Assembly (NCBI GenBank): GCA_945897785.1
Contig: CAMDGD010000002.1
Location: 24,063 to 88,062, forward strand
From: Paludibacter jiangxiensis
GTDB taxonomy: Bacteria > Bacteroidota > Bacteroidia > Bacteroidales > Paludibacteraceae
Direction of reading: 5' to 3'
Length of the DNA stretch: 64,000 nucleotides
The first letter of the stretch is position 1; the number at the start of each line of letters is the position of its first letter. The position numbers were made by a program, and so were the translations under genes. The notes below the pieces were generated by a model. It made no database searches. It was not told the origin of the DNA and saw only the letters and a program-made list of their open reading frames with translations. Positions 56,344 to 62,191 of this stretch are shown here, piece by piece.

Positions 56344-56344
56344 G

Positions 56345-56735
56345 TGGACCTGACGGGAGTCGAACCCGTGTCCAAACGAGGAACTAACTTGCTTTCTACA
56401 TGCTTATCTTCGCTTAAGTTTTCGAAATAACACAAGACCGAAGCCACCAATGTTATCCTTAGTCTTTTAATTTCACCAAAGAATCAAGACCTTTCTTTGG
56501 CTATCCCTGAATTTTCTACACCGCTTGATCGGACGCTTTAGGGCGTAGCTTCCGAGCGATGTCTCGTCCTATCACATGTGACCGGATAAAGTTTAATCTA
56601 CTATAATTCGATTAAGCAGCAAGAGCGTAATTATTTTCGCCAGTTAAAATGTGCCGACTATGATTTAAGTGCTATCCGACAACGCACTGCATGCTTACAA
56701 ATCACCTCTACCCGCTGTCAAAACCAAACAGGCCC
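56345..56735 (-). ncRNA. ssrA: Transfer-messenger RNA (tag encodes GENNYALAA-stop at 56612..56641)
   Basis: Reverse strand begins GGGCCTGTTTGGTTTTGACAGCGGG and ends GGACACGGGTTCGACTCCCGTCAGGTCCA; GGGCCTG pairs with CAGGTCC; internal GGCGAAAATAATTACGCTCTTGCTGCTTAA. Confidence 0.95.
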
Positions 56736-56737
56736 TT

Positions 56738-56773
56738 TTAATCAGAACGGAGAAATGAGAACAGAGAACGAAA
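56738..56773. repeat. Left inverted repeat of the S23/four-helix-bundle element
   Basis: TTAATCAGAACGGAGAAATGAGAACAGAGAACGAAA; reverse complement matches 57165-57200 at 33 of 36 positions. Confidence 0.85.
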
Positions 56774-56793
56774 AGAGAGAGAAGGAAAGAGGG

Positions 56794-57144
56794 TTAGTCA
56801 TCTCCTAGTTTTTTGATTATGGCGTATAGCATTTTGGATATTTCTTCGAGGGTATTATAAAAATAGTCGTACCCTTCTTTGGATATTTTTTCAATATCAA
56901 CCAAGTGATCCATGATGCCAACACATTCAAAAACACTTCCTCTGGCCATTACCATAAAATGTCTTCTGTCTTTTTTTGAAAACCTTGCCGACCCTTCGGC
57001 AAGGTTTAATAATATACTCGTAGAAGCTCTACTGAGTTGATCTTTTAAAATAAAATCTAATTTACTTTTAGCAATAAATAGCTTTATATCTTTACAATAC
57101 TTACGCGTTTTTAAATAAACATCTAACTTCTGAAACTCAAACAT
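56794..57144 (-). CDS. Four-helix bundle protein (23S rRNA intervening-sequence S23 family)
   Basis: FQKLDVYLKTRKYCKDIKLFI...LKDQLSRASTSILLNLAEGSARFSKKDRRHFMVMARGSVFECVGIMDHL...LEEISKMLYAIIKKL. Confidence 0.9.
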   Translation of the reverse strand: MFEFQKLDVYLKTRKYCKDIKLFIAKSKLDFILKDQLSRASTSILLNLAEGSARFSKKDRRHFMVMARGSVFECVGIMDHLVDIEKISKEGYDYFYNTLEEISKMLYAIIKKLGDD

Positions 57145-57164
57145 AATCTACAGTTTTCCTTGTA

Positions 57165-57200
57165 TTTCGTTCTCTGTTCTCCGTTCTCTGTTCTGATTAA
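57165..57200. repeat. Right inverted repeat of the S23/four-helix-bundle element
   Basis: TTTCGTTCTCTGTTCTCCGTTCTCTGTTCTGATTAA; contains consecutive GTTCTCY units. Confidence 0.85.
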
Positions 57201-57208
57201 TCCGTTTT

Positions 57209-58738
57209 CTATTTCGCAAAAGATACCGCTCTAGTCTCTCTGATCACCGTAATTTTCACTTGTCCCGGATAGGTCATTTCATCTTGTATTTTTTTAGCGA
57301 TATCGAACGATAGTGTTTCGGTATCTTTGTCGCTAATTTTGTCGGCACCAACAATCACCCGTAGCTCTCTGCCGGCTTGTATAGCATATGTTTTTAATAC
57401 TCCCGGATAAGAAAGTGCAAGGTTCTCTAGGTCGTTAAGTCGTTTGATGTAGGCTTCAACAATTTCTCTACGGGCTCCCGGACGAGCACCACTTATGGCA
57501 TCGCAAACCTGTACAATAGGGGATAGTAAGCTGGTCATTTCTATCTCGTCGTGGTGTGCGCCAATGGCATTGCAAATTTCTGGTTTCTCTTTGTATTTTT
57601 CGGCCAGTTTCATACCTAAAATTGCGTGTGGTAATTCCGGCTCATCGTCAGGCACTTTGCCAATATCGTGCAATAAGCCTGCTCTTTTAGCTTTTTTAGG
57701 ATTTAGCCCAAGCTCAGAAGCCATAATAGCACAAAGGTTTGCTGTTTCCCGTGCATGTTGCAATAAATTTTGTCCGTAAGATGAGCGGTACTTCATTTTA
57801 CCAATCATACGAATCAACTCAGGATGTAAACCATGTACGCCCATGTCGATAGTGGTTCGTTTTCCGGTCTCGATGATTTCTTCTTCAACTTGTTTTTTTA
57901 CTTTAGCCACAACCTCTTCGATGCGTGCAGGGTGAATACGACCATCTGTAACCAATTGATGTAAGGCCAAGCGAGCAATTTCTCTCCGTACCGGATCAAA
58001 GCCTGAAAGCACAATGGCTTCTGGGGTGTCGTCAACAATAATTTCGATACCGGTAGCCGCTTCTAAGGCGCGGATATTTCTACCTTCGCGACCGATAATG
58101 CGTCCTTTTAGCTCGTCTGATTCTATATGGAATACCGTAACGGAATTTTCAATGGCTGTTTCGGTAGCAACCCGCTGAATGGTTTGCACAATTATCCGTT
58201 TAGCTTCCTTATTGGCCGTCATTTTAGCTTCTTCCATCCGTTCGTTGATATACGACATGGCTTCTGTTTGGGCTTCGTCTTTTAGCGACTCTACCAGCTT
58301 TTCTTTAGCCTGATCGACAGATAAGCCCGAGATGCTTTCTAATTTACCCAACGCTTCTTTATGGATTCTCTCCAGTTCTTTCTTTTTGTTCTCTATAACT
58401 TCAATTTGAGTTTCCAGGTTGGCTTTAATAGCATCTGTCTCAGATGATTTTCGTTGCAAATCTGCTTGAATTTGCCCTTGTTGCATTTCTCGTTGCTGAA
58501 TTTTTGCTTCAATTTGTTGGATTTTAGCATTACGCTCGGCAATGTGTTTTTCGTACTCTTCTTTTAAGTTTAGGTACTTCTCTTTTACTTCAATAAGCTT
58601 ATTTTGCTTTAGCACTTCGGCTTTAGCTTCAGCCTCTTGAATTAAATTTTTTGCTCGGGTTTTTACGATAAAATTTACCGTTATCCAAGTGATTATACCT
58701 CCGCCTATAAAAGCGCTGATTATTAGAATAATATTCAT
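57209..58738 (-). CDS. rny: Ribonuclease Y
   Basis: N-terminal TM, coiled coil, KH domain [40 protein letters not shown] domain [10 protein letters not shown]. Confidence 0.96.
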
Positions 58739-60722: not shown

Positions 60723-60806
60723 GTTTTTTTATCTAGATTCTAGACTCTTCCTATCATAGTTTGTTTTCTGCAAATTTCATTAATTTTGTCCATCAAAACA
60801 AATAAA

Positions 60807-62084
60807 ATGTTTCAACACCCGCATAAAATACGAATAGCAGATTACGATTATTCTCTGCCAGATGAACGTATAGCCAAATTTCCGCTTGAGCAACGGGATG
60901 CCTCAAAATTATTGCTGTACAAAAACGGCAAAATTTCAACAAGGCAGTTTTTTGAGCTTCCCGATATGTTGCCCGCAGATAGTTTGCTGGTATTTAACAA
61001 TACCAAAGTAATTCAAGCGAGGCTTATCTTCTCTAAAGATACAGGAGCCCAGATAGAAGTATTTTGTTTGGAGCCATATAGTCCAAATGACTATGCTCAA
61101 GCTTTTCAGCAAACACAATGCTGTGAATGGAAATGTATGGTGGGGAATCTAAAGAAATGGAAAACTGGTGTGTTGCAATTGTTCGTTGGGGGGAACGATG
61201 TATTGCCTCAACGGATTACCGCCGAGAAAATTTCTACTGTTGAAAACACCCATATCATTCGTTTTACCTGGGATAATCCGGTTTATAATTTTGCTGACAT
61301 ATTGGAATTGGCCGGCGAATTACCTATTCCGCCGTACCTTCATAGAAGCACCATTGAAAAAGATAAAGAGACATACCAAACCGTGTATTCTAAAATTAAG
61401 GGTTCGGTAGCTGCTCCAACGGCAGGCTTGCATTTTACTCCGCAAGTGCTCGCAAACTTGCAAGCCAAAGGCATAGAAACAAATGAACTTACCTTGCATG
61501 TGGGTGCAGGTACTTTTCAGCCTGTAAAATCGGATGTTATTGAAGGGCACACTATGCATGCCGAATTAATTTCGGTACGGAAAGAAACTATAGCGCGATT
61601 GCTTACAAAAATAGATACGATTGTGGCGGTGGGAACAACCTCTGTTCGTACACTCGAAAGTCTCTATTATGTTGGTGTCTTACTAGAAAAGAATCCAAAT
61701 GCAACACAAGCTGAATTAGCTATAATGCAATGGATGCCTTATCAAACAGAATTTACTATTACGACAACAAAAGCGTTGCAAAACATACTAACTTACCTTG
61801 AAAGCAAGCAATTGGATAGGCTGCAAACTTCTACTCAGATTATTATTGCTCCCGGCTATCAATTTAACTTGGTAAAGGCTATTATCACTAATTTTCATCA
61901 GCCTAAAAGTACCTTGTTGTTATTAATTTCAGCCTTCCTTGCTGGAGATTGGAAGGGGGTATATACTTATGCACTCGAAAATGACTACAGGTTTTTGAGT
62001 TATGGAGATAGTTCTTTGTTGATTAATGATGTATTAGAATCAAGAATAAAGAACCAAGAATATAGACAAAAGAATAAAGAGTAA
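60807..62084 (+). CDS. queA: S-adenosylmethionine:tRNA ribosyltransferase-isomerase
   Basis: ADYDYSLPDERIAKFPLEQRDASKLLLY...APTAGLHFTPQVLANLQAKGIE...LTLHVGAGTFQPV...ITNFHQPKSTLLLLISAF. Confidence 0.96.
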   Translation: MFQHPHKIRIADYDYSLPDERIAKFPLEQRDASKLLLYKNGKISTRQFFELPDMLPADSLLVFNNTKVIQARLIFSKDTGAQIEVFCLEPYSPNDYAQAFQQTQCCEWKCMVGNLKKWKTGVLQLFVGGNDVLPQRITAEKISTVENTHIIRFTWDNPVYNFADILELAGELPIPPYLHRSTIEKDKETYQTVYSKIKGSVAAPTAGLHFTPQVLANLQAKGIETNELTLHVGAGTFQPVKSDVIEGHTMHAELISVRKETIARLLTKIDTIVAVGTTSVRTLESLYYVGVLLEKNPNATQAELAIMQWMPYQTEFTITTTKALQNILTYLESKQLDRLQTSTQIIIAPGYQFNLVKAIITNFHQPKSTLLLLISAFLAGDWKGVYTYALENDYRFLSYGDSSLLINDVLESRIKNQEYRQKNKE

Positions 62085-62191
62085 AGACAAAAGACGGGGT
62101 CTGCGTTTTACTATCAAAAGTAAAAATTTGCACTACCGAAATTCGTGTAAATTGGTGCTAATTTGTGGACAAGTACTTTCTTGACCTTCGA
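62076..62191. repeat. Right arm of the large inverted repeat flanking queA
   Basis: See left arm 60607-60722; overlaps the last codons of queA. Confidence 0.9.

Follow-up and report, generated by a model that had tools for sequence, protein, structure and literature searches.

An S23 gene between inverted heptamer arrays in the rny-ssrA spacer of Paludibacter jiangxiensis: a probable mobile relative of rRNA intervening sequences

In the genome of Paludibacter jiangxiensis, a small gene of the S23 family, the proteins of 23S rRNA intervening sequences (IVSs), lies between rny and ssrA, outside any rRNA gene. What is such a gene doing directly in front of a tmRNA? The window analysed here is the whole 64,000-nt stretch of DNA that contains this locus. 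A sequence-only reading of the window had suggested a relative of IVS elements outside rRNA, which might be mobile and whose transcript would fold into a stem presenting the ORF in its loop. Our analysis indicates that the S23 element, roughly 0.46 kb long, is probably a mobile element of the IVS type, with heptamer arms specific to its locus, inserted in sense into the rny-ssrA transcript 5′ of the tmRNA.

The locus touches on three open questions: why some bacteria fragment their 23S rRNA, what role the IVS protein S23 plays, and what the heptamer repeats of cyanobacteria are. Should rRNA IVSs prove to be just one habitat of a large heptamer-armed family resident in operons and in tRNA/tmRNA precursors, these would become a single testable question. 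IVS elements, the S23 family and the cyanobacterial heptamer hairpins are already known. New, as far as the literature was searched, are the generality of heptamer arms among S23 genes, their residence in operons, a branch associated with tRNA and tmRNA genes, and the connection of all these with rRNA IVSs. No description of heptamer-armed S23 elements outside rRNA was found in a search of incomplete coverage, with preprints outside it, so novelty is not proven.

Anatomy of the element in the rny-ssrA spacer

The features of the locus are the following:

56344–56735, minus strand: ssrA (tmRNA), found by ARAGORN and Rfam (RF00023, E = 2.4e-57)
56738–56742, minus strand: downstream copy of a candidate target-site duplication ATTAA (in sense GTTCTG[ATTAA]AAGGGCC), ambiguous, overlapping the inverted repeat
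56738–56773, minus strand: 3′ arm (in the sense of S23), an inverted heptamer array, complementary to 57165–57200 at 33/36 positions
56794–57144, minus strand: S23 (23S_rRNA_IVP) ORF of 116 aa encoding a four-helix bundle (PF05635, E = 2.9e-24; TIGR02436)
57165–57200, minus strand: 5′ arm (in the sense of S23), heptamer array TCAGAACAGAGAACGGAGAACAGAGAACG, recognised by complementarity and predicted RNA pairing
57197–57201, minus strand: upstream copy of the candidate duplication ATTAA (in sense ACGG[ATTAA]TCAGAAC), ambiguous, overlapping the inverted repeat
57209–58738, minus strand: rny (RNase Y) ORF, from the ORF list; rny adjoins ssrA in several relatives

The 36-nt inverted repeats reported around one S23 ORF are as described. 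The arms (outer limits 56738–57200) are complementary at 92% of positions, are 391 nt apart and flank a single intact S23 ORF. The earlier description did not include the tandem heptamers of which they are built. Both arms are inverted arrays of the degenerate heptamer AGAGAAC/GGAGAAC, with 5.4 copies in the 3′ arm (a period-7 array of AGAACAG) and 3.7 copies in the other. In the same test as was applied to other loci, the arm pair scored 28.5, compared with 12.0 at most in shuffles. The proposed stem was reproduced by the predicted RNA fold of the element, in which the arms are paired around the ORF (MFE −136 kcal/mol, z = −7.4) and which none of 100 shuffles equalled.

The element fills the rny-ssrA spacer completely, leaving 8 nt to the rny stop and 2 nt to the 5′ end of the tmRNA, and all three genes lie tightly together on one strand. 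The IVS architecture had thus been placed correctly between rny and ssrA. In a motif search, the Bacteroidota promoter motif TAnnTTTG was not found within 400 nt upstream of the window tmRNA. The same search located it approximately 30–60 nt upstream of the tmRNA in most relatives in which rny does not adjoin ssrA. As far as a motif search can tell, this absence fits co-transcription with rny, and the element is probably co-transcribed with both rny and ssrA. The ORF list contains no transposase inside the element. The Rfam scan of the whole window returned the tmRNA only, and identity with a group I or group II intron was rejected because the scan gave no match to a catalytic intron RNA. 23S rRNA was not found in the window genome, which is a MAG.

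Heptamer arms at other S23 genes and in rRNA intervening sequences

Six PF05635 genes are present in the window genome. Inverted arms made of short tandem repeats of other sequences accompany further copies (AAAGATA/AAAGACA at L001 and ATAGTAA at L005 and L006), and L002, which lies at the end of a contig, shows an array of 7/8-mers on a single side. In the window genome and its relatives, 76% of 116 S23 genes possess a complementary arm pair, counted at a score of ≥13. The corresponding values were 5% for arms swapped between loci, 4% for shuffled arms and 2% for other ORFs. A second set of 100 further S23 genes gave 74% versus 4% with swapped arms, again with a period of 7. These genes came mostly from genomes of Bacteroidota, Ignavibacteria, Pseudomonadota, Planctomycetes, Chloroflexota and candidate phyla, and included one Methanophagales archaeon and plasmids, mainly cyanobacterial. 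The collection was scanned with a narrower S23 alignment, a divergent alignment of 13 proteins being too variable.

The arms show autocorrelation peaks at lags 7 (0.65), 14 (0.62) and 21 (0.58), other lags giving about 0.2–0.4. A minority of arms have repeat units of 8 or other lengths, and about one quarter of S23 genes have no detectable arm pair. Paired heptamer arms are the rule for S23 genes, and the combination of inverted repeat and S23 that was sought at other loci is therefore present at most of them. The heptamer sequence is specific to each locus, yet both arms of a locus match, which implies that their pairing has repeatedly been preserved or re-established. G exceeds C in the 5′ arm in 84% of cases. 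Arm similarity tracks protein similarity, with a mean cosine of 0.44 above 60% identity, a class that includes orthologous sites, and of about 0.05 below 50%.

The connection with rRNA is provided by Azospirillum lipoferum 4B. A plasmid match in this strain sits in helix 45 of a 23S rRNA gene and is a genuine IVS, and its arms are heptamer arrays (TCAGAGGACGGATGACAGAGGACGGA). A second 23S copy of the same strain has the same flanks without the element and carries the helix tip GTGTGATCTTCGATCACGC in its place. The IVS of Coxiella burnetii, 428 nt long, is excised by RNase III and has tandem GACAGAT heptamers upstream of S23p in numbers that vary between strains; in the available part of that report, the authors do not tie them to a wider class of elements (PMC4990558). 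The window element resembles the Coxiella IVS in having an S23 ORF between complementary ends, a similar length and a position inside a transcript. It shares with 23S IVSs the S23 (23S_rRNA_IVP) protein and the predicted long terminal stem, but occupies a rny-ssrA spacer instead of rRNA, and its S23 belongs to a branch apart from that of the Azospirillum IVS. The idea of a non-rRNA relative of IVSs is thus borne out by like arms at most S23 genes and at a true helix-45 IVS, and the rRNA IVS appears to be just one setting of a broad class of mobile elements that live inside transcripts.

Cyanobacterial STRR sequences are 7-bp, hairpin-forming repeats of unknown function located between cistrons, for example hupS-hupL (PMC2670836). 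They are similar to S23 sites at which heptamer arrays or hairpins stand without S23 (L257, L081). STRRs have been described without any protein, and they may be identical with such S23-less remnants.

Placement within transcripts and mobility

With simple ORF calling, S23 genes were co-directional with both neighbours in 188 of 201 cases and opposed by both in 3. In 5-kb loci treated with the same gene caller, 69 of 71 S23 genes (97%) were co-directional with both neighbours versus 71% of ordinary genes. At L165, as a single case, S23 lies on the strand opposite its neighbours. Median distances are 0.5 nt between the upstream stop and the beginning of the 5′ arm, and 10 nt between the end of the 3′ arm and the next start. 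On plasmids, S23 sites include the cas6-cas4 gap, the cmr2-cmr3 gap and a conjugation operon. If rRNA IVSs do belong to a larger heptamer-armed family, a large number of operons (cas, cmr, fad, trb, rny-ssrA) carry an element that likely affects their RNA processing.

Two groups of sites deserve separate mention. The elements of L166, L167 and L170 are located within CRISPR-Cas operons of cyanobacterial plasmids (cas6-cas4, cmr2-cmr3), of which relatives have S23-less versions. At L191, L202, L234 and L188, in different species, related S23 elements lie now on one side, now on the other of genes in what looks like one fatty-acid degradation (fad) operon, as would result from repeated independent insertion.

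Among the closest protein relatives of the window S23 (53–55% identity) are three that also stand beside stable RNA genes: L269 and L270 just downstream of tmRNA and L272 by tRNA-Leu. Further relatives have tRNA-Ser and tRNA-Pro on either side or a tRNA-Arg as neighbour. In the two sets of S23 genes described above, with 219 records in all, a tRNA or tmRNA within 300 nt was seen for two genes only, one of them being the window copy. In the phylogenetic tree, the stable-RNA copies, with the exception of the rRNA IVS, form one supported branch (99/90), and the stable-RNA label changes 4 times versus 16.4 expected. Some arms in this branch are 6-mer arrays.

The order tRNA-Ser(GCT)-S23-tRNA-Pro(TGG) recurs in many families (L275, L277, L279, L280, L282, L283, L285, L286, L288 and L289). 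Several of these copies have no detectable arms, and they are possibly a resident, domesticated form. Another locus of the window subclade (L271:1500–2384) contains a tandem pair of almost identical S23 genes separated by some 200 nt, in which a hairpin and 6-mer repeats are found.

Mobility was assessed at occupied and empty sites, the search covering one genome per species. Empty rny-ssrA spacers of roughly 4–14 nt, sought on the suggestion of the sequence-only reading, occur in the relatives L060 and L078, and the spacer of L081 holds a heptamer hairpin without S23. In Trichormus variabilis, an element lies between two genes that are about 13 nt apart in close relatives, with flanks about 97% identical, and is bounded by a clean 5-bp direct repeat GTAAT. 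The same site in L257 has heptamers of the same kind and no S23 gene. Nostoc plasmids provide a second occupied/empty case, with a 3–5 bp repeat at a stop codon. In the pairs of occupied and empty plasmid operons, flank identity is 88–98%. Two more sites lack a clean duplication: at one the element is situated in the last codons of the upstream gene, and at the other a few target bases are replaced.

The search for target-site duplications, which had also been advised, succeeded in part. GTAAT is the one unambiguous duplication; the other insertion sites have either ambiguous repeats, ATTAA in the window among them, or a target that is altered at some bases. In a survey of 134 loci, direct matches at the outer ends of the arms had a mean maximal length of 4.22 versus 4.12 with swapped flanks. 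Duplication as a general mark of these elements was rejected, this survey being near chance with the boundaries used.

Homology confined to the element (arms and ORF, 70–85% nucleotide identity over about 400–430 bp) was found at unrelated sites in the pairs L168/L169, L035/L093, L144/L124, L188/L195 and L005/L006. Both members of the last pair belong to the window genome, and their upstream genes are remotely similar (26% protein identity). Most S23 loci have differing neighbours, and some orthologous positions are retained between species. Between copies at different sites, dN/dS is 0.04–0.12 where computable, and these low values indicate that the S23 protein is kept by selection. A recent second copy of the window element was not found, its closest relatives having about 55% protein identity. 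Judged from sequence comparison, S23 elements are mobile as a class. The mobility suggested for the window element has therefore gained ground at the class level: other S23 genes do carry arms, similar elements stand at unrelated loci, and sites without S23 exist both in plasmid operons and in rny-ssrA spacers.

Proposed mechanism and rival explanations

The structural model of the window S23 protein (pLDDT 95.5) superimposes on the S23 structures 2rld and 2gsc with TM scores of 0.8–0.9 (0.84–0.89). Its fold is also similar to that of the Avd protein of diversity-generating retroelements (DGRs), with TM 0.80 to 4dwl and 0.79–0.81 to DGR RT-Avd complexes. Homology between PF05635 and Avd has been called likely (PMC10053308), and the Xanthomonas S23 protein is a homopentamer (PMC4990558).

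We consider the following course of events the most likely. The element would be transcribed along with its host operon, and its arms would fold into a long RNA stem. RNase III would cut this stem, and RNase P would probably act at the 5′ end of the tmRNA. The element would thereby leave the transcript with rny and tmRNA unharmed, and host RNAs would survive because the element is placed where breakage is harmless. Such an excision from the transcript would explain the sites occupied: tips of rRNA helices, tRNA and tmRNA precursors, and gaps between cistrons. The S23 protein may bind the element RNA or the heptamers, be required for spread and aid a host enzyme that inserts new copies. To our knowledge, the S23 family has no catalytic site, and cleavage and copying of the DNA must therefore fall to a different enzyme.

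The identity of that enzyme is where rival explanations diverge. The element could be a non-autonomous, MITE-like DNA transposon with S23 as cargo, mobilised in trans by a host transposase such as an HUH enzyme of the Y1/RAYT type, with transcription needed only for the expression of S23. Terminal inverted repeats and the single clean 5-bp duplication at another site agree with this, although, as far as we know, Y1 enzymes make no target duplication. Over 61 genomes, comprising that of the window and those of 60 relatives, the number of S23 genes correlates with the Y1_Tnp count (rho 0.66, or 0.63 after genome size), the values being 0.08 for reverse transcriptase and a weak 0.24 for rve, the control. 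We regard this correlation, which takes no account of phylogeny, as a lead. REPIN/RAYT systems are likewise short hairpin elements scattered between genes with a helper protein encoded elsewhere. Y1/RAYT transposases bearing the same arms were nevertheless looked for and dismissed: RAYT genes are flanked by GC-rich REP-type palindromes, whereas S23 elements have long heptamer arms, S23 and no Y1 transposase. Insertion in sense in 188 of 191 co-directional contexts would also be out of the ordinary for a DNA transposon, barring a bias caused by selection for expression. We consider this explanation rather unlikely.

Still less probable, in our opinion, is an RNA-borne element inserting through reverse transcription, with an Avd-like S23 and a reverse transcriptase supplied in trans. 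The Avd-like fold and the near-absolute sense orientation within transcripts speak for it. The window element, unlike a DGR, has no adjoining reverse transcriptase; the two RVT_1 matches of its genome are on contigs C38 and C75, and the window is on C2. Moreover, several S23-rich and nearly complete genomes lack PF00078, among them G004 and G026, which have 9 and 11 S23 genes, and the numbers of the two genes are uncorrelated. Reverse transcriptase was rejected as the helper on the last two grounds, and S23 elements do not require such an enzyme to be encoded by their own genome. The remaining explanation dispenses with mobility: S23 would be an ordinary resident gene and the inverted repeat a regulatory hairpin or terminator. 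The tight fit into operons, purifying selection on S23, the orthologous positions and the recurring tRNA-Ser/S23/tRNA-Pro order are all in its favour. It is largely refuted for the S23 class by the empty sites with closely similar flanks, the empty 23S copy within one strain, the element-only homology at unrelated sites and the differing neighbours at most loci, and we hold it to be very improbable. S23 matches were not found in phages at the sensitivity used, and an IMG/VR search with the window S23 protein gave no match.

Beyond the preferred reading of the window element as an IVS-type mobile element, a broader proposal can be made, in which, taken jointly, our confidence is evenly balanced. 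S23 with inverted heptamer arms would constitute a widespread class of transcript-resident mobile elements in Bacteria and at least one archaeon, with rRNA IVSs as its best-known habitat. The S23 pentamer would recognise the heptamers specific to its locus, arms and protein would co-evolve, STRR hairpins would be remnants, and the window branch would be specialised on tRNA and tmRNA transcripts. Such a class would provide a wealth of insertions in nature for which unoccupied sites exist, together with a small soluble protein and a locus-variable repeat matched between the arms.

A dispersed intergenic cassette was observed in addition. It consists of a heptamer array AAAGAACCAAGACAAAAGAACGGAGAAC followed by an array of the 10-mer AATTAGTGGA and CTGTGTTAATCCGTG repeats, in some cases with a GC hairpin. 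The cassette occupies 62036–62190 of the window and sites on further contigs of G000, namely C63 (L010), C10 (L017), C21 (L019), C24 (L021) and C41 (L022). Its heptamers are common to the window S23 arms, but it has no S23 gene. In the window, the cassette extends the 3′ end of the ORF at 60786–62084.
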